A stretch of 57,268 nt of DNA from Candidatus Methylomirabilota bacterium (GTDB lineage: Bacteria; Methylomirabilota; Methylomirabilia; Rokubacteriales; CSP1-6), in assembly GCA_035709005.1 (NCBI GenBank), contig DASTFB010000012.1, forward strand, positions 1 through 57,268, in the 5' to 3' direction. Below are positions 12,660 through 39,997 of the stretch, in pieces; position 1 is the first letter of the stretch; the number at the start of each line of letters is the position of its first letter. Position numbers and translations under genes: made by a program. The notes under the pieces were generated by a model that saw only the letters and a program-made list of their open reading frames with translations, did no database searches and was not told the DNA's origin.

Positions 12660-14087
12660 TTACTGCCACTGCCGCGCGACGACCGTCGGCTTGATGTTCT
12701 GGTTCAGTCGGAAAAGGTTCGTGGGGTCGTACTTCTCCTTCAACGCGAGTAGCCGCTGATATTTGTCGGCGCCGTAGGCTGCCCGGACCCGCTCGGCCCC
12801 CTCGTCCCCTTCGCGACCCAGATAGTTCACGTACACACCGCCGGTCGAGAACGGTTGCATGGCCTCCCAGAAGTCACGCGCCCACTGCGTGCAGCGCTTC
12901 GCCTCGGCGGGATCGGTGCACAGCCCGAGGGCGACGAACGCGTGCTGTGCATCGCGCGCCGCGAACGCGGTGGTATCTCGATCGATCCGTCCCACCGCGC
13001 CGCCCAGCTGGTACTCAAGTAGCGCATGGCACAGCGGCGAGGCGAGCGCCGTGCAATGGGCGATCATGGTGTCGATCGCGTTGTCGCCGACATCGTGAAG
13101 GAAACTCGACTTCCAGTAGTGCTGCATCCCGGATGGATACGAGGCGTCCAGCATCGTCTGGACCGCGGTGTATGAGGTCGGCCCCAGCTGATCGACGACC
13201 GGCGTGCCAAGCTTTTTCAAGGGCGCCAGCAGGCATTCGCCCTCGGCCACGGGCCCGCAGTAGCACGCGGCGATCCCGGCGACCTTCGCGCCGTCTGGGA
13301 GCGTGAGGAGGGCGGCATCGACGGCCAGTTCGTCCGGAGCCGTGTGCGTCAACTCGCGGTACCGCTGGAGCACCTCCCTGGCGATGGCGAAGGGATAGAA
13401 CACGAACCCGCCCACTACGGGACCGACGGGATGGAGCCGATACTCGAACGAGGTGACGACGCCGAAGTTGCCACCCCCGCCGCGCACGCCCCAGAAGAGG
13501 TCTGCGTTCTCGGAATCGCTAGCCGTGCGAAGCTGCCCGTCCGCGGTGACGATGTCGACGGACATGAGGTTATCGCTCGCCAGGCCGTACTTCCGGGCCA
13601 GCCAGCCCCAGCCGCCGCCGAGGGTCAGGCCGGCGACCCCGGTCGTGGAGACCTGACCACCCGTGGTGGCCAGCCCGAAGACCTGAGTCTCGTGATCGAA
13701 CTCGCCCCACGTCACACCGGCCTCGGCCCGGGCCGTCCGTCTGCCTGGATTGACGTGGACGCTCTTCATCCCGGAGAGATCGATCATGAGGCCGGCGTCG
13801 CACGCGGCGTTGCCCGCGACATTGTGGCCGCCGCCGCGAACGGCCAGAACCACGTCGTGATCGCGTGCGAAGTTGACACACGTGATGACATCGCCAGCCC
13901 CGGCACAGCGGGCGATCAGCGCCGGTCGCTTGTCGATCATGCCATTCCAGATCTTGCGGGCTGCGTCGTACCCGTCGTCGCCGGCGCGCAAGAGTCGACC
14001 GCGCAGGCGGCCCTTCAACTCCGCGACGGCCGCCTCTCGGAGAACGTCTTCGGCGCCGCTGTTCATGATGATTCGCACGTCTGCCAT
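12660..14087 (-). CDS. FAD-linked oxidoreductase of the berberine-bridge (BBE-like) family
   Basis: 475 residues; ATG at 14087 with AAAGGAGG about 7 bases upstream. It has a PCMH-type FAD domain with RGGGHNVAGN, where H88 is the expected site of covalent FAD attachment. The second (Cys) attachment site of bicovalent members is not present: the corresponding stretch reads TTGVAGLTLGGGWGWL. The substrate domain follows, then the BBE signature NLFRLNQNI at the C-terminus. It oxidises an alcohol, sugar or alkaloid-like substrate with O2 or another acceptor. It begins only 32 bases after the attC-like site at 14119-14220 in the cassette direction, so it may itself be a captured cassette, though I found no clear second site after its stop. 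Confidence 0.88.
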   Translation of the reverse strand: MADVRIIMNSGAEDVLREAAVAELKGRLRGRLLRAGDDGYDAARKIWNGMIDKRPALIARCAGAGDVITCVNFARDHDVVLAVRGGGHNVAGNAACDAGLMIDLSGMKSVHVNPGRRTARAEAGVTWGEFDHETQVFGLATTGGQVSTTGVAGLTLGGGWGWLARKYGLASDNLMSVDIVTADGQLRTASDSENADLFWGVRGGGGNFGVVTSFEYRLHPVGPVVGGFVFYPFAIAREVLQRYRELTHTAPDELAVDAALLTLPDGAKVAGIAACYCGPVAEGECLLAPLKKLGTPVVDQLGPTSYTAVQTMLDASYPSGMQHYWKSSFLHDVGDNAIDTMIAHCTALASPLCHALLEYQLGGAVGRIDRDTTAFAARDAQHAFVALGLCTDPAEAKRCTQWARDFWEAMQPFSTGGVYVNYLGREGDEGAERVRAAYGADKYQRLLALKEKYDPTNLFRLNQNIKPTVVARQWQ

Positions 14088-14118
14088 GGCTTCCTCCTTT
14101 GTTCGGCCGCCATTGCGC

Positions 14119-14220
14119 CTCTAACGGCCCAGATCAGCGGCATGGGAAAAGCAGCGCGCCTTTTGCGCCTCGCAAAAGGCGTGACGCTTTTGACATGTCC
14201 GCTGCATCTGGTTGTTATGT
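14119..14220 (-). other. attC-like integron recombination site (site 1, 102 bp)
   Basis: Read on the minus strand it starts with ACATAAC (R'' type, AAC core) and ends with GTTAGAG (R' type, GTT core). Just inside, CCAGATGCAGCGG pairs with CCGCTGATCTGG over 12 positions, with one extra G on the 5' arm. That is the extrahelical-base asymmetry of attC sites. A long internal stem follows: CGCCTTTTGCG against CGCAAAAGGCG, flanked by AAAAGC/GCTTTT. The extra base sets the orientation: cassette genes should lie on the minus strand at higher coordinates, which they do. Confidence 0.78.
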
Positions 14221-14288
14221 GGCACGCTGAGCGCCTTCGGCTAAGGCGGTCCGGAATACATCGTTCAATCGAGCACGAAGATCGCTGC

Positions 14289-14654
14289 CTACCAACAGAT
14301 CCGGCCGACCCTGACCGGAGAAGGTCGCACACCGTGGCGCTCCAATTCACCCTCAATGAATTCACCGATCTCGGGGATAGGATCACCGAGACCGAGTTCC
14401 GAGGTTTGCGCTTTTAACTCGGGAAGATTCGATATGGCCTGTCGGATTCGCGTTGGCGCCACCAAATCGACTAGGTCCTGAAAACGCACCGGAAGTATAC
14501 CGAGTCCTTCTTCAATGTGTTTTATCGCCAACAAGGGACGGAGCACGTAGAAGTACTTCTTAAGGCGCACCTTGTCCTTATACAGGTACGCTCGCGCATT
14601 GCGGCGTGCCATGCGCGCGAAGCGCGTCCGCTCGATTGCGAAGTTATCCGTCAT
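14289..14654 (-). pseudogene. C-terminal fragment of a YcgL/RlaP-type nucleotidyltransferase
   Basis: 121 codons are open from ATG 14654, but the content matches only the C-terminal helical half of the PF10127-type predicted nucleotidyltransferases: RFARMARRNARAYL, then VRLKKYFYVLRPLLAI, ILPVRFQDLVD and IGEFIEGELE. The catalytic N-terminal domain with its GS-x-D-x-D type motif is missing, and there is no room for it before the hydratase remnant ending at 14696. It is followed 69 bases later by attC-like site 1. It is probably a non-functional fragment captured in the cassette tract; a small stand-alone protein cannot be excluded. Confidence 0.6.
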
Positions 14655-14695
14655 CTGTGCGTTCGAGCCTCGGACACGGCGCCATCACTGTCACG

Positions 14696-15486
14696 TCACG
14701 GCTCGATCCTGACTTCGATCGTCCCAAGGCGGTCGAACCGGGCGACGACACGATCACCGGCGCGTGCGGCGATCGGAAGGGTGAAGCTCCCCGAAAGGAT
14801 CATCTGCCCGCCTGTGAGCTTCAGTCCCGTCGCGGCGAGTTGATTCGCCAACCACGCAACCGCCTTTGCCGGCCCGCCCAAGACTTCTGAGCCCGTGCCA
14901 TTGCGACAACCTCGCCGTTCTTTTCGAGCACGACTGTGATTGACGCGAGATCGCCGACGTCGGCAGGCGTCATCACCGAAGGCGAGACCACCATGTACGC
15001 CGCCGCGGCATTGTCAGCCGTAACATCCTCCAGCTTCCATCCTCCGCTGAAGCGAGTCCTGGCGAGCTCCAGGGAGGCGCCGAGCCCTCCCGTAGCTGAG
15101 AGGATGGCGGATTCGGTGAGACCTGGCCCGGAAACCTCGTGGGCAAGGGAGAAGGTCACCTCCGGCTCCACGAGGAAATCGGGCCCGCCGGATAGGGATA
15201 CCTCGCTGGCGGCCAGAGCGGTCTCGAAGGGGTGACCCCGCGTTGGCTCACGAGCTTGAAACCGCTCGCGGATTATCGGATTGGTGAACGCGGTTTTCCA
15301 TCCGACGTGGCGAAGACCTGAACGACTCTTCAGCGCTGCGACACGCGCTTGGATTTCATAGGCATCGGCCAGCGTCAATTCCGGGTGCTCGCGAGTGAAT
15401 GGGACGAGCATCCTCCCGCTCTGTTCTGCCCCGGCCGGCAGGTGGAATGCGTGGTTATCCGTCGATCTCAAGCCGAGCGTCGGCAC
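14696..15486 (-). pseudogene. 2-keto-4-pentenoate hydratase-like (FAH superfamily), frameshifted
   Basis: Residues from GRMLVPFTREHPELTLADA to EKNGEVV are in one frame, including GWKTAFTN, the metal-ligand run FLVEPEVTF and ASLELARTRF. The rest, NGTGSEVLGGPAKAVAWLAN to the C-terminus IEVRIEP, is in another frame. One A lost from GTCGCAATGG (about 14899-14903) explains the shift, since GCAAATGGC would restore the reading. The first residues of the family are replaced by sequence running into the DUF4926 gene (18-base overlap), so the 5' end is also disturbed. The ancestor hydrated 2-keto-4-pentenoate-type acids in meta-cleavage of aromatics. Confidence 0.75.
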
Positions 15487-15701
15487 GTTCTGACGGCGAC
15501 GAGATCGTCGTCAGCTACCGCGCGGACGTCCCGGACGCCCAGCGTAAGGAGCGCTGCTGTCCTGCCAGACGCGGTCACAAACTCCACCTCGAGCCCGTCG
15601 GGCTCATAGACCTCCACCACCGCGCCCAGATCGCCCTTCCGCAGCCCATACTCGGGTACGTCCCGGTCGAGAACGATGGTGTCCAAAACGCGATACGTCA
15701 T
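15468..15701 (-). CDS. DUF4926 small protein
   Basis: 77 residues starting MTYRVLDTIVLDRDVPEYGL. The pattern KGDLGAVVEVYEPDGLEVEFV and ALLTLGVRDVRAV is that of DUF4926, a small SH3-like beta protein of unknown function. Its ATG overlaps the upstream DUF6883 stop as ATGA, so the two form a coupled pair. Such tight small pairs are often toxin-antitoxin or immunity modules, but nothing in the sequence proves that here. The partner carries a nonsense codon, so this may now be the only intact member. The last codons (RTCRRSA) lie in a small GC-rich inverted repeat. Confidence 0.65.
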   Translation of the reverse strand: MTYRVLDTIVLDRDVPEYGLRKGDLGAVVEVYEPDGLEVEFVTASGRTAALLTLGVRDVRAVADDDLVAVRTCRRSA

Positions 15702-16039
15702 CTTCCGGCCTCCGGATACGCCGTCACGAACCTGGCGAAGTCCTCACCGGCGCGAATGACCCAGACGCTCACGAGGGCCGCCGGGGCGCCGGCTGGCCCA
15801 ACCAGAGTAGCGCGGACCACGTATTTCTGCCCGTATCGAGTCGGTTCGTCGGCCGTCGCTTCCTTGGAGAGGTGCTGGCTACGGAGGTCTGCCTCGAGCT
15901 GCCTCTAATTTTGAGATGAGTAGCCAAGTGACTGAAAGAAGGCGGCTTTGAACCGCCCCACGGGATGACCGCGTGAGAGCAGGTAGTCATGCAGCTTTGC
16001 CGGTTCGACAACTGCACGATCCGCATTCGGGATCAGCAA
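15698..16039 (-). pseudogene. DUF6883 protein interrupted by one nonsense codon
   Basis: The frame starts at TTG 16039 (GGAGAA about 12-17 bases upstream) and reads LIPNADRAVVEPAKLHDYLL, then HPVGRFKAAFFQSLGYSSQN, TAG (15907-15905), and then resumes in the same frame with RQLEADLRSQHL, RYGQKYVVRATLVGP and SVWVIRAGEDFARFVTAYPE to a stop at 15698. DUF6883 proteins commonly have a Trp where the TAG stands, so a single TGG to TAG change explains the break. Everything else is intact, which suggests recent inactivation or a base-call error. It is coupled to DUF4926 by ATGA and lies 46 bases after attC-like site 2. Function unknown. Confidence 0.7.
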
Positions 16040-16084
16040 TCGCTAGCGTTCCTTACGTTCTCCTGAGTCCGCCAACTCTGGTAC

Positions 16085-16142
16085 GGATAACGCTGGGCAT
16101 CAGCCGCGCGCGTAGCGCGTCGGCTGCATGCCCGAGTTAGGG
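16085..16142 (-). other. attC-like integron recombination site (site 2, 58 bp)
   Basis: On the minus strand: CCCTAAC at the 5' end and GTTATCC at the 3' end. Between them GGGCATGCAGCCGA faces CGGCTGATGCCC, pairing apart from one extra G on the 5' arm and one unpaired A, with an inner GCGC/GCGC stem and a short loop. The 58-base length is close to the minimum for attC sites. It lies between the stop of one ABC_sub_bind gene (16176) and the start of the DUF6883 frame (16039), exactly where a cassette boundary is expected. Confidence 0.82.
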
Positions 16143-16175
16143 TTCGGTTCCGCCACATCATTCGCAAAAGGGCGA

Positions 16176-17168
16176 TCAATCGATCAGCTGGTCCGCCCGA
16201 ATCAAGAGCGATTGTGGAATCGGCAAGCCGAGGGCCTTGGCGGTGGTGAGGTTGATGATCAGCTCAAACTTCGTCGGTTGCTCCACGGGGAGGTCGCCAG
16301 GCTTGGCGCCCTTCAGGATCCTGTCCACAAACAACGCCCCATGCCGGTACATCTCTGGCAAATTCACTCCATAGGCCATCAGACCACCAGCCCCGGCGAG
16401 TTCCCTGACTCCGTACATCGCCGGGATTCGGTACGTCGCGGCGAGGTCGATGATCCGTGCTTGATGAGCCAGGAACATCCCGTCCGGAGGTACCGTGAGA
16501 GCTTGCACGCGCTCTTGGGTCATCGCCGAAAAAGCACCCTGGAGGTCTTGGGGGTCCCGCACCGCCATCGCATGAAGCTGTACCTTGAGCCGCCGCGCTG
16601 CGGCTTCGATCACCTTCAAACTCGGTCCATGTATCGGGTTGGCGGGGTTCCAGAGGGCAGCAATCCGAGCGGCTTCGGGCACCGCCTCCTTGAGGATCTC
16701 AAGGCGTTTCGCATTCAACTCCACGCCTGCGAGGTGTGTCCAGCCCGTGATGTTGCCCCCGGGGCGCGCCAAGCGAGGGACGAGTCCACTCCCGACCGGA
16801 TCGGCGACAAATCCGATGACGATCGGAATCGTCGTGGTGGCTTGCTTGGCTGCCAGCGCTGATGGCGTCGTCGAGGCGAAGATAATGTCAACCTTGAGGC
16901 GTACCAGATCAGCCGCAAGCTCGGGGAGCCGACCCTGCCGTCCCTCGGCGTATCGAACCTCAATGACCATGTTCTGGCCGTCGATCCAACCGTACTCGCG
17001 AAGCCCTCGGCGAAACGCCTCCAGGTGCGGTGTACCGGGGGCCGCCGATCCGAACTCAAGATACCCTACCCGGGCTGTCTTCGGCTGTGCCTCAGTGGCA
17101 GGCCCGGCAGTGAGTACGCCGAGGACGAGGACGACGACGACAGGCATAAATTCCTTGCGAGTAACCAT
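16176..17168 (-). CDS. ABC_sub_bind family substrate-binding protein (cassette gene 2)
   Basis: 330 residues; ATG 17168 with ATAGGAGG upstream; the longer open frame lacks a good start. It has a signal peptide VVVVLVLGVLTAGPATEAQ, then the periplasmic-binding fold of the COG2984 group: RVGYLEFGSAAPGTPHLEAF, GLREYGWIDGQNM, RYAEGRQGRLPELAADLV, RLARPGGNITGWTHL, and near the end the family run FVDRILKGAKPGDLPVEQPT. It should capture a small ligand for an ABC importer, but no permease or ATPase is present. The next gene upstream (17306-18331) is a diverged paralog. The gene sits between attC-like sites 3 and 2. Confidence 0.9.
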   Translation of the reverse strand: MVTRKEFMPVVVVLVLGVLTAGPATEAQPKTARVGYLEFGSAAPGTPHLEAFRRGLREYGWIDGQNMVIEVRYAEGRQGRLPELAADLVRLKVDIIFASTTPSALAAKQATTTIPIVIGFVADPVGSGLVPRLARPGGNITGWTHLAGVELNAKRLEILKEAVPEAARIAALWNPANPIHGPSLKVIEAAARRLKVQLHAMAVRDPQDLQGAFSAMTQERVQALTVPPDGMFLAHQARIIDLAATYRIPAMYGVRELAGAGGLMAYGVNLPEMYRHGALFVDRILKGAKPGDLPVEQPTKFELIINLTTAKALGLPIPQSLLIRADQLID

Positions 17169-17239
17169 CCCACCTCCTATCACCGAACTTTCCTCTGGGT
17201 CGGCCTCACCGTAACCACTTCCCCTCGAGAGTTCCCGAA

Positions 17240-17296
17240 GCCGAACGCAGCGCTCAGCGGCCGGCGCAGCCGGTCCGCTGAAGCGGCTTGTTCGAC
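17240..17296 (-). other. attC-like integron recombination site (site 3, 57 bp)
   Basis: On the minus strand: R''-like GTCGAAC, then AAGCCGCTTCAGCGG, an unpaired A, the hairpin CCGGC-TGC-GCCGG, then CCGCTGAGCGCTGC and R'-like GTTCGGC. R'' and R' pair fully if one G-T wobble is allowed; TCAGCGG pairs with CCGCTGA; the 5' arm has one extra base. The single unpaired A and the short stem are textbook attC features. It lies between two homologous binding-protein genes, 10 bases after the stop of one and 72 bases before the start of the next. Confidence 0.82.
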
Positions 17297-17305
17297 GAGC
17301 GCGGC

Positions 17306-18331
17306 TCACTCGACGATCTCGTCTGTCCTGAGCAGCAGCGATTGGGGCAGGGTTAATCCCAGCGTCGCGGCCGTCTTACGATTGACGGTGAGATAGTATC
17401 TCGTCGGCTGTTCCGCGGGCACGCCGGCCGGGTTGGCGCCTTTGAAGATCCGATCAATGTAACGTGCCGCCGTTCGGTAAGTGTCTTCCACGCTGACTCC
17501 GTAGGACATCAGCCCACCCTCCCGGACGATGAAGTTCCATTCATACATGGCGGGAATGCGGTGGCTGGTCGCGAACTCGACAACCCGCTTGCGATTCGTA
17601 GTGGTAAGCCCGTCTGCCACCAGGAACATGGCGTCTGGACGACGGCGCGCCATCGCAGAAAACACCTCGGCGAAGTCATCGGGCCCCCGCAGCCCAAGGG
17701 CTTGCACCTCCACCCTGAGGGTGCGCGCGGCCTTTTCAATCTCACGGTAACGAAGTGTCATCCCTTGATCGTTTGCGTTCCAGAGGATGGCAATTACACG
17801 CGCCGTCGGCAATGCTTCCTTCAGGAGTTCCATACGCTTGCCGCTGAGCTGAATCGATTCGTCGGTCAACCCAGTCACATTCGCACCGGGACGCGCGAGG
17901 CTGGCTATCAGCCCAGTCTCCACCGCGTCTCCGGCAAACGTCGCCATGATGATCGGAATCGAGGAGGTCGCTTGCTTCGCCGCCACCGTCGCCGGCCCGC
18001 CATTCGTCGCGATCACGTCCATCTTGAGTCGCACGAGCTCGGCGGCCAGGCCCGGCAGTCGCTCCACAAAGCCCTCCGCAAAGCGGGCTTCGTACACGAT
18101 GTTCTTGCCCTCGACATAGCCGAGACCGCGCAACGCCTCGCGGAGCGGGCCGGGGGGCGCACCGTCGGGTGTCCGACTTGCTACCGCGAGGAAACCGAGC
18201 CGAAACACCTTCTGGCCGGGTTGCGCTACGGCCAGTAGGGGAGCCACGAAGATGCCGAGCGCCAGTGATAGCGCAACGGCGAACCTCAGGATGGGCGGTC
18301 GAACATGCCAAGACGCCGTGGAGCCGTCCAT
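17306..18331 (-). CDS. ABC_sub_bind family substrate-binding protein (cassette gene 1)
   Basis: 341 residues from ATG 18331 (GGAGA and GGAGA-like purines upstream). Signal peptide: RFAVALSLALGIFVAPLLAVA then QPGQK. The mature protein has the same order of motifs as its neighbour: GFLAVASRTPDGAPPGPL, GLGYVEGKNIVYEARFAEG, RLKMDVIATNG, SLARPGANVTGLTDESI, YIDRIFKGANPAGVPAEQPT and a C-terminal LGLTLPQSLLLRTDEIVE. It is a clear paralog of the protein at 16176-17168, and the two ends (NRKTAATLGLTLPQSLLLR and NLTTAKALGLPIPQSLLIR) are similar. Ligand unknown; no transporter partners nearby. It is followed directly by attC-like site 3. Confidence 0.9.
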   Translation of the reverse strand: MDGSTASWHVRPPILRFAVALSLALGIFVAPLLAVAQPGQKVFRLGFLAVASRTPDGAPPGPLREALRGLGYVEGKNIVYEARFAEGFVERLPGLAAELVRLKMDVIATNGGPATVAAKQATSSIPIIMATFAGDAVETGLIASLARPGANVTGLTDESIQLSGKRMELLKEALPTARVIAILWNANDQGMTLRYREIEKAARTLRVEVQALGLRGPDDFAEVFSAMARRRPDAMFLVADGLTTTNRKRVVEFATSHRIPAMYEWNFIVREGGLMSYGVSVEDTYRTAARYIDRIFKGANPAGVPAEQPTRYYLTVNRKTAATLGLTLPQSLLLRTDEIVE

Positions 18332-18755
18332 GAATCTCCGTCTCCCGCTGATCTGAGTTTTCGTCGAACTAGAATTCGACGCCGGGATAGGCTGATCTGC
18401 ATAACACCACAAGCGCCGCGAGTTCCGGCGGCCTATCTCGGGCGGCCAACTGGACGAGAAGTGCATTTCGGCCTGCCGATTTAGCGCGTTGCCCAACAGG
18501 ACCGCGTTTAAGACGCTCTGGATAGGCTGCCCGATCGCGCAGCGTATCCCGGCGCACTTGGGTTGAAATAACAGGGGGAGGCGGCTTCCGACAACGGATC
18601 CGAGTGACTGCGTGAGGACGATGAAGACCGCCCCCTTTCGTTCCTGGCGCCGGCGACTATAGCGTGTCTCCGCTGGTGCGGGCAAGGACGACAGCCGCCA
18701 CTTGACGCCGCCGCGGTAGCGACGTATCCGTAGGAGCCTCAAGGGAGGCGGCGGC
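18332..18755. other. Intergenic stretch between cassette tract and ubiD operon
   Basis: 424 bases with no gene I can support. Short open frames exist on both strands but have no recognisable domain. It contains one imperfect hairpin at 18520-18549 (GGATAGGCTGC facing GCAGCGTATCC, one mismatch) and a perfect GTTGGGC on the minus strand at 18496-18490, which would fit an attC 3' end; the matching inner arms are too weak for me to call a fourth site. The promoters of the two divergent flanking genes should lie here. Confidence 0.5.
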
Positions 18756-20246
18756 ATGGAAGAGCGCAGCACGGTCGATGTCCCGCGCGATCTGCGGGAG
18801 TGGATAGCCCGGGCCGAGGCGATCGGCCAGATCCAGCGCATCCGGCAGCCGGTCGCCCGGGACGAGATGGGCGCCATCACGTACATGGCCCACCAGACGC
18901 CCAACGCGCCGGCGCCGCTGTTCGAGAGCATCGAGGGCTGCCGGCCAGGCTTCCGCGCCCTGTGGAACCTGATCGGCTCCAGCACCGACCGCTTCGCCCT
19001 CGCCATCGGGGAGCCGACCGGCCTGCCGGTGATGGAGCTCATCCGCCGCTGCAAGAGCCGGTTCACGCAGAGCCTGGCGCCGGTCTTCCTCGACCCCAGC
19101 CAGGCGCCCGTGAACGCCAACCACATCTATGGCGACGACGTCGACGTCATGATCTTCCCGGCCGGCCGCCACTGGCCGCGCGACGGCGGCCCGTACATCG
19201 GCACCGGCGACGCCGTCATCACGCGCGATCCGGACGCCGGCTGGCTGAACGTGGGCTGCTACCGCCAGATGGTCCACGACGGCAAGCACGTCGGCCTGTA
19301 CCTGTCGCCGGGCAAGGACGCGCGCCTGCACATCGAGCGGTACTGGAGCCGGGGGGAGCCCTGCGAGGTCGTCGCGGCGTGGGGCGTGGACCCGGCCATG
19401 TTCATCGCGGCCTCGCTCACGTTTCCCAAGACGGTCTCCGAGCTGGACTTCATCGGCGGGATCGCCGGCCGGCCCGTGGAGCTCTGCAAGGGTCAGGCGG
19501 GCGGGGTGCCGTACCCGGCGCGCGCCGAGATCGTGATCGAGGGGGTCGTGCATCCCGAGGCCCTCAAGCGCGAGGGGCCCTTCGGCGAGTTCACCGGCTA
19601 CTACGGCCGGCCCGAGGACTTCGCCTTCGTCGTGGAAGTGAAGGCCATTCACCACCGCGACGAGCCCATCCTCACGCACGCGCTCATGGCCGACTATCCG
19701 GCGAACGAGACGAGCCTGCTCTACTCCATCGCCCGGTCGGCCAAGATCTGGAACGACCTCGATCGCCTGGGCGTGCCGGGCATCCAGGGTGTCTACTGCC
19801 ATCCCGCCGCCGCGGGGGGCTGGGGCATGACGATCGTCTCGCTGGAGCAGCGCTATGCCGGCCACGCCCCCCAGGCGCTGGCCCTGGCCGCGCAGTGTCC
19901 GGGCGGCGCCTACTTCGCGAAGTGGATCGTCGCCGTCGACGAGGACGTCGATCCCTCGAACATGAACCAGGTGCTGTGGGCCATGGCCACGCGCTGCAAT
20001 CCGGTCGAGGACATCGACATCCTGCGATCCACGTGGTCGACCTGGCTCGATCCCACCCAGAACCCGCCGGAGGAACGGCCCTACGGCTCGAAGGCGCTGA
20101 TCAACGCCTGCATGGAGCACCGGTACATCAAGCAGTTCTCCAAGCGCACGAAGGTCAGCCGCTCCGTCTACGAGTCGGTGGCCCGTCGCTGGAGCGAGCT
20201 CGGGTTCACGGGCACGCCGCCGAAGCTCTGGGCCCTCGAGGACTGA
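18756..20246 (+). CDS. UbiD-family prenyl-FMN-dependent decarboxylase
   Basis: 496 residues, the usual UbiD length; ATG with GGGAGGCGG upstream. It shows the prenyl-FMN and catalytic region PYPARAEIVIEGVVHPE and REGPFGEFTGYYG, giving the Arg-Glu-Glu arrangement of the family. Other family runs are SPGKDARLHIERYW and WIVAVDEDVDPSN. The enzyme reversibly (de)carboxylates aromatic or unsaturated acids using prenylated FMN made by UbiX; no ubiX is in the window. It is 11 bases upstream of a molybdenum hydroxylase gene and in one run with a flavin-dependent oxidoreductase, which suggests an aromatic-acid degradation operon. Exact substrate unknown. Confidence 0.93.
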   Translation: MEERSTVDVPRDLREWIARAEAIGQIQRIRQPVARDEMGAITYMAHQTPNAPAPLFESIEGCRPGFRALWNLIGSSTDRFALAIGEPTGLPVMELIRRCKSRFTQSLAPVFLDPSQAPVNANHIYGDDVDVMIFPAGRHWPRDGGPYIGTGDAVITRDPDAGWLNVGCYRQMVHDGKHVGLYLSPGKDARLHIERYWSRGEPCEVVAAWGVDPAMFIAASLTFPKTVSELDFIGGIAGRPVELCKGQAGGVPYPARAEIVIEGVVHPEALKREGPFGEFTGYYGRPEDFAFVVEVKAIHHRDEPILTHALMADYPANETSLLYSIARSAKIWNDLDRLGVPGIQGVYCHPAAAGGWGMTIVSLEQRYAGHAPQALALAAQCPGGAYFAKWIVAVDEDVDPSNMNQVLWAMATRCNPVEDIDILRSTWSTWLDPTQNPPEERPYGSKALINACMEHRYIKQFSKRTKVSRSVYESVARRWSELGFTGTPPKLWALED

Positions 20247-39022: not shown

Positions 39023-39997
39023 ATGGTTCGTCTGCTGCTGGCCGGAGTCCTGATCCTCCTGCCCCTGGTGAGCGGCGCTGCCGCCCAGGAGCGGTATCCC
39101 ACGCAGCCCATCACCATCGTGTCCCCGTACCCGCCCGGCGGCGCCGCCGACCTCACGGCCCGGCCGTTCGCGCCGGCCCTGGAGCGCGTGCTGAAGCAGC
39201 CCGTCGTCGTGCTCAACAAGGTCGGCGCCGGCGGGGCGGTGGGGACGCAGTGGGTGTCCCTGGCCAAGCCCGACGGCTACACCATCCTGCTCACGGTGTT
39301 CTCCATCTCCACGATCCCGGAGGCGGAGCGCGTCGCCGGCCGGACGCCGATCTTCACGCGGGATCAGTTCGTGCCCATCGCCCGCCTGAACGCGGACCCC
39401 ACGCTCTTGATGGTGCCGGCCAACGCCCCCTGGAAGAGCATCAAGGACCTGGTAGAGGATGCCAAGAAGCGTCCCGACCAGATCCTGTACGCATCGGCCG
39501 GGCCCTACACCGTGTCGCACATGGCCATCGAAGTGTTCCAGCAGGCGGCGGGAATCCGCCTGCGCCACCTGCCCACGACGGGCGGCGGCCCGGCCATGAC
39601 CGCGGTGCTGGGGGGACACGCCATGCTGTCGGCTCTCTCCACGGGAGCGGTGACACCCCAGGTCAAGGGCGGCAAGGTTCGGGTCCTGGCCAACTCGGGG
39701 GCCAGGCGGCTGGCCGCCTTCCCGGACACTCCGACGCTGAAGGAGCTCGGCTACGACGTGGAGGTCTATCTGTGGACCGGGCTCTTCGCGCCGAAGGGTG
39801 TGCCGGCCCACGTCCTCCAGACGCTCCGGGACGCGACGCGCCGGGCCGTGCAGGACAAGGAGTTCCAGGCCGCGTCGTTGAAGATGCAGATGCCGCCCGC
39901 CTACCAGGACACGGACGAGTTCAAGGCCTGGTGGGACAAGGACGCCGAGATGCTGGCCGCCGCCATCCGGCGGATGGGGAAGGCGAATGCCAAGTGA
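39023..39997 (+). CDS. tctC: Tripartite tricarboxylate transporter substrate-binding protein (Bug/TctC)
   Basis: 324 residues; ATG with AAGGAGG 8-14 bases upstream. Signal peptide MVRLLLAGVLILLPLVSG then AAAQ. Bug-fold signatures are YPTQPITIVSPYPPGGAAD, KVGAGGAVGTQWVSLAKPDG, LPTTGGGPAMTAVLGGHA and AAFPDTPTLKELGYDV. It captures a carboxylate in the periplasm for the TctA/TctB membrane partners encoded next, to which it is coupled by a GTGA overlap. Unlike the many orphan Bug proteins of soil bacteria, it has its full transport set here. Confidence 0.94.
   Translation: MVRLLLAGVLILLPLVSGAAAQERYPTQPITIVSPYPPGGAADLTARPFAPALERVLKQPVVVLNKVGAGGAVGTQWVSLAKPDGYTILLTVFSISTIPEAERVAGRTPIFTRDQFVPIARLNADPTLLMVPANAPWKSIKDLVEDAKKRPDQILYASAGPYTVSHMAIEVFQQAAGIRLRHLPTTGGGPAMTAVLGGHAMLSALSTGAVTPQVKGGKVRVLANSGARRLAAFPDTPTLKELGYDVEVYLWTGLFAPKGVPAHVLQTLRDATRRAVQDKEFQAASLKMQMPPAYQDTDEFKAWWDKDAEMLAAAIRRMGKANAK

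Follow-up and report, generated by a model that had tools for sequence, protein, structure and literature searches.

The locus considered here raises the question of how an array of gene cassettes comes to stand in a bacterial genome with no integrase at its head. It lies in a contig of 57,268 nucleotides from a Candidatus Methylomirabilota bacterium (GenBank DASTFB010000012.1; contig C12 of genome G000), the whole of which is referred to below as the window. A preliminary description, made from the sequence alone, had recognised three attC-type sites on the minus strand between positions 12660 and 18331 and had read the tract as an integrase-less CALIN in a GC-rich bacterium. A CALIN is defined as two or more attCs that share an orientation and are separated by less than 4 kb, with no adjacent intI (IntegronFinder, PMC9024848).

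Since a scan of the window with Rfam gave no match at gathering score, attC covariance models of our own were built. A simple attC finder was run on 80 intI loci of named genomes and on several plasmid integrons; the great majority of its matches beside intI were on the strand expected, and the training set can therefore be taken as sound. Of the two models, the first (R1) failed to find site 1 of the window and the 130-nt sites of Gemmatirosa, apparently owing to a length limit near 100 nt. R2 was trained on a gap-free alignment of 37 non-redundant attCs of canonical geometry from other phyla; it allows long terminal hairpins, and it found site 1. The minus-strand sites that had been proposed were returned by R2 with exactly the same coordinates:

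14119 to 14220, minus strand: attC site 1, 102 nt; R2 26.3 bits, E 1.5e-4; folding z -7.5/-7.6
16085 to 16142, minus strand: attC site 2, 58 nt; R2 36.6 bits, E 3.3e-7; R1 34.4 bits
17240 to 17296, minus strand: attC site 3, 57 nt; R2 31.3 bits, E 7.8e-6; R1 30.1 bits

When the window was scanned with R2 with filters off, sites 2, 3 and 1 were the top three matches. The covariance scores on which the preliminary description had staked its proposal thus bear it out, at 26.3-36.6 bits from our own attC model against 13.0 bits for the next match in the window.

Read on the minus strand, site 1 is ACATAAC AACCA GAT-G-CAGCGG A .. CCGCTG ATC TGGGCC GTTAGAG, site 2 is CCCTAAC TCGGG CAT-G-CAGCCG A .. 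CGGCTG ATG CCCAGC GTTATCC and site 3 is GTCGAAC AAGCC GCT-T-CAGCGG A .. GTTCGGC. The AAC...GTT cores, the complementary inner arms and the single extra base that had been described can be read directly from these, and the extra base sits at the canonical position, 8 nt after R''. The resulting 8/9 geometry is that of 68 of the 84 candidate training sites. A second conserved extrahelical base, of which the preliminary description made no mention, lies 7 nt beyond the first; it is a T when read on the bottom strand that folds, the plus strand of the window. On that strand the first extrahelical base is C, C and A in the window sites as against the usual G, C being common in the phylum and A less so. 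The R arms of site 3 pair at 7/7 positions if a G-T pair is allowed; R-arm pairing at sites 1 and 2 is limited to the four bases TAAC/GTTA.

Either strand of each site folds more stably than 200 of 200 shuffles (z -3.4 to -7.6). Stable folding, together with a position behind gene ends, is also what would be expected if the hairpins were terminators or a dispersed palindromic repeat, a reading that is scarcely credible in view of the canonical attC geometry with its two extrahelical bases, the strict polarity of the sites relative to the attI described below, and their scarcity. Within 738 kb of the same genome that were scanned in full with R2 (about 16% of 4.59 Mb in 134 contigs), just eight matches reach 26 bits or more, the next scoring 16.9. 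An ordinary dispersed repeat, the other outcome against which the initial proposal had been hedged, is not what these sites are. The eight comprise the three in the window, three at one end of contig C75 (L155; 4476-4536, 6880-6939 and 10102-10161, reaching the contig end), one on C15 (L253; 2080-2147) and one on C93 (L275; 775-869). With R''/L''-L'/R' arms, AAC/GTT cores, the spacer, extrahelical bases and covariance scores all as in attC, the window's three sites are, on these sequence features, attC sites.

Consecutive sites lie 1,097 and 1,864 bp apart, within the 4-kb limit and in the same orientation, and tblastn detected no IntI match in the window. Because the sites are attC and no intI adjoins them, the tract is a CALIN by definition, as had been proposed; it is not a complete integron, in which intI, attI and attC stand together, the intI being on another contig. 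Draft assemblies split integrons and so inflate CALIN counts (PMC9024848); the array here lies 12-19 kb inside its contig, and the missing intI is therefore not an edge effect. The integrase-less CALIN reading was nevertheless incomplete: it left out an attI with promoter-like upstream sequence (18363-18685), an intact IntI on another contig and the erosion of intI that can be followed in relatives.

In the direction of reading, the genes of the array are the following:

17306 to 18331, minus strand: cassette 1, ABC substrate-binding protein (PF04392)
16176 to 17168, minus strand: cassette 2, ABC substrate-binding protein (PF04392), 44% identical to that of cassette 1
15468 to 15701, minus strand: cassette 3, DUF4926 protein (PF16277, E 2.4e-19)
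14696 to 15486, minus strand: cassette 3, hydratase-like gene with a frame change (ORFs 14821-15486 and 14696-14881)
14289 to 14654, minus strand: cassette 3, C-terminal part of RlaP (PF10127 positions 127-224 of 249, E 2.8e-23)
12660 to 14087, minus strand: FAD/BBE oxidoreductase after attC 1, cassette or host gene

The close spacing claimed for the sites, each shortly after one minus-strand gene and shortly before the start of the next, holds generally, the exception being site 2, after which there is no clear start codon. Cassette 3 is long, at about 1.9 kb, and may be two fused cassettes. Its split hydratase-like gene, which has below-cut-off matches to hydratase/decarboxylase models and to FAA_hydrolase, is either a pseudogene or the product of a sequencing error. 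The FAD oxidoreductase starts 32 bp after attC 1, with no attC downstream, and its homologues are patchy and at best 57% identical. Two minor corrections concern the bounds first given to the tract: nothing marks the 12660-14087 gene as a cassette, and the element runs past 18331 to about 18685.

The best match of the cassette 1 and 2 proteins is TrpX, below its cut-off. Their family, PF04392, is the commonest among the array cassettes of the phylum (6 of 73 ORFs), and by our own count it is enriched more than tenfold in cassettes relative to genomes, the background being about 13 genes in the present genome and, in eight relatives, 3 to 41 matches. In several relatives an attC directly follows a substrate-binding-protein gene. 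PF04392 proteins recur in integron loci of relatives (L156, L165, L173, L178, L180, L181, L191 and others), and four of the eight copies in genome G079 are on its integron contig C16. The window array yielded no resistance cassettes. Such recurring solute-binding-protein cargo suggests that the arrays may shuffle nutrient-uptake specificities. Elsewhere in the window, at 39605-39697 on the plus strand, ARAGORN reports a 93-nt tRNA-Trp inside long ORFs of both strands, possibly a false positive.

Upstream of cassette 1, the array is headed by a further set of features:

18363 to 18437, minus strand: attI site, core GTTCGAC at 18363-18369 with a conserved element upstream; homologous to C41:133-208 beside intI
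18438 to 18589, minus strand: spacer between attI and the presumed former intI stop; spacer alone E 4.3e-12 with a profile that excludes the window
18628 to 18640, minus strand: leader 13-mer CGAAAGGGGGCGG, also present unchanged upstream of the C41 intI
18656 to 18685, minus strand: promoter-like TTGCCC-N18-TATAGT reading into the array; consensus match

Local alignment pairs window 18361-18437 with C41:133-208, just 3' of the intI on that contig. BLAST and pattern searches together place the element at 35 loci in 23 genomes of the phylum, a 28-base pattern giving 32 matches in 21 genomes and the BLAST list 3 more copies, and a reversed control pattern gave 0 matches. When the loci are aligned in the direction of the array, conservation is strong as far as ..CCGAATTCTAGTT; beyond GTT only positions +2 and +4 are conserved (0.86 each), after which conservation falls to background. 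Such a profile is expected of an attI-cassette junction with a G/TT crossover. Most of the attI loci contain attCs recognised by R2, and 68 of 68 of these lie downstream on the same strand. In the window, the 5' core of cassette 1, GTTCGAC, is exactly complementary to the cassette's own R'' box, GTCGAAC, at 17290-17296.

The element stands upstream of a substrate-binding-protein gene here and near such genes in some relatives, as it would if it were a regulatory leader of these genes instead of an attI. That is most improbable: the sequence downstream of GTT varies among loci, most cassette ORFs are not substrate-binding proteins, and the element and intI (or an intI stub) are separated by a constant distance. 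In the complete integrons of the clade it adjoins intI (G000:C41 and G059:C123; a near-complete intI at G079:C16). Lying beside intI in these integrons, conserved to G/TT and followed by attCs on one strand, the element at 18363-18437 is, judged by this comparison, an attI.

The same genome carries one intact IntI, on contig C41, which scores 458.7 bits with TIGR02249 (cut-off 265), shares 55% identity with IntI1 and, aligned with it, keeps the catalytic residues R-K-H-R-H-Y as well as the IntI-specific segment, the features that mark an integron integrase. On C41 the intI is followed, after about 220 bp, by an attI of the same type as that of the window, and the attCs of C75 could be the continuation of this integron. 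Across the phylum, TIGR02249 has a match of E <= 1e-60 in 38 of 95 genomes, above the cut-off in 32, as compared with 0 of 14 control genomes.

It is the sequence between the attI and the leader that bears on how the window array may have lost its integrase. When attI and spacer were combined in a profile from which the window was left out, it matched 18569-18367 (E 3.2e-32), and the spacer-only envelope ends at 18588/18589, about the expected position of the intI stop codon, whose distance upstream of the attI core is about 220-230 bp in complete members. The spacer holds an inverted repeat, GGATACGCTGC..GCAGCCTATCC, at about 18518-18556. No intI occurs in the 1.5 kb upstream of the window attI and no intI stub in the window, so that deletion of the gene is inferred from the spacer and the leader. 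Before its intI, C41 has a leader with a -10-like hexamer and the 13-mer, both as in the window. The pattern TATAGT-N5-30-GAAAGG occurs in the genome at these two leaders only; it was designed after both sites had been seen, and our own estimate is that about one match would arise by chance, so the leader match serves as supporting evidence only. At least 13 orphan attIs in relatives retain a C-terminal intI piece ending 222-248 bp from the core, and the loci of the clade form a series in which intI is intact, reduced to a C-terminal stub or cleanly absent. The simplest reading of the window locus would be a clean deletion of intI.

A different history would follow if a foreign IntI had put cassettes at a secondary site, in a locus that never had an intI. 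Insertion at secondary sites is one proposed origin of CALINs (PMC8618304), and a window without an intI stub would suit it. We nonetheless consider this history very unlikely, as the array has a genuine attI head and shares about 200 bp of upstream spacer with intI-linked loci, a homology that disfavours it, and intI stubs are present at other loci of the same type.

The tract is, very probably, a degraded chromosomal integron in which intI has been deleted and the head and cassettes retained. What is observed on the minus strand is a promoter-like leader, spacer, attI and cassettes separated by three attCs, with no intI at the head. The ancestor would have been a complete integron with intI, spacer, attI and cassettes all on a single strand, the layout seen on C41 and in relatives. 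A deletion with its downstream end at about the intI stop codon (18570-18590) would have removed intI and joined the leader to the spacer and attI, and the cassettes would now be read from the leader promoter. The IntI of C41 could act in trans, binding the folded bottom (plus) strand of each attC, and could recombine the window attCs with the attI of the window or with that of C41. Set against degradation of an integron are the R''/R' pairing of sites 1 and 2, four bases only, and the length of cassette 3 with its broken gene.

Service in trans also opens a reading in which attI heads without intI are working docking sites, kept under selection and served by one IntI. Several genomes of the phylum carry 2 to 6 attIs, orphan attIs are as near the consensus as intI-linked ones (about 0.80 vs 0.77), and the intact IntI of this genome adjoins the same attI type. 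However, genome G058 has six attIs with incomplete intI pieces beside them, its intact IntI belongs to another clade, which lacks such an attI, and no intact IntI of the matching clade was found in it; moreover, recent deletions would give the same pattern. Selection for docking sites is thus conceivable but rather doubtful, and we extend the same tentative standing to a distributed integron, in which several attI-headed arrays at different loci of one chromosome, most of them without an integrase of their own, would still work as docking sites whose cassettes a single IntI inserts, removes and exchanges in trans. On contig C168 of G058 (L227), two attI-headed arrays face each other (1051-1078 and 18962-18989).

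Three routes to CALINs have been proposed and the question is still debated (PMC8618304). The present clade lets the route through loss of intI be read directly, from intact gene to stubs to clean absence, because the attI is recognisable at every stage. It further supplies an attI signature for Methylomirabilota, a phylum absent from the integron carriers in a 2021 review, and makes the service of several attIs in trans by one integrase a testable idea. The open-access literature yielded no paper on integrons in Rokubacteria or Methylomirabilota. As far as it was searched, the presence in one clade of many integrase-less arrays, several to a genome, headed by a recognisable attI is new, as is the solute-binding-protein cargo.

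Among known systems, the CALINs (PMC9024848) resemble the window array in the number, common orientation and spacing of their attCs (two or more, under 4 kb apart) and in the lack of an adjacent intI, whereas the window array differs in that its head still has a promoter-like leader, a spacer and an attI that can be recognised; among attIs, IntegronFinder detects those of class 1 only. One proposal holds that CALINs are integrons that have degraded (PMC9024848); intI is commonly found as a pseudogene (PMC2426708), and in Xanthomonas there are integrons with inactivated or deleted intI in which the array is retained (PMC12444791). The likeness to both of the latter is that intI is lost and the array stays; by comparison with Xanthomonas, the clade is another one, several attI-headed arrays occur per genome, and the intI between leader and attI is gone. 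In archaeal integrons attI lies immediately downstream of intI (PMC9668308), as in this clade, and in the Gemmatirosa array (L040) intI and attCs share one strand, as they do here, although in both the attI sequence differs from that of the clade. The class 1 integron has the same attC geometry; its intI1, however, is divergent from the cassettes, in contrast to the single-strand arrangement found here.
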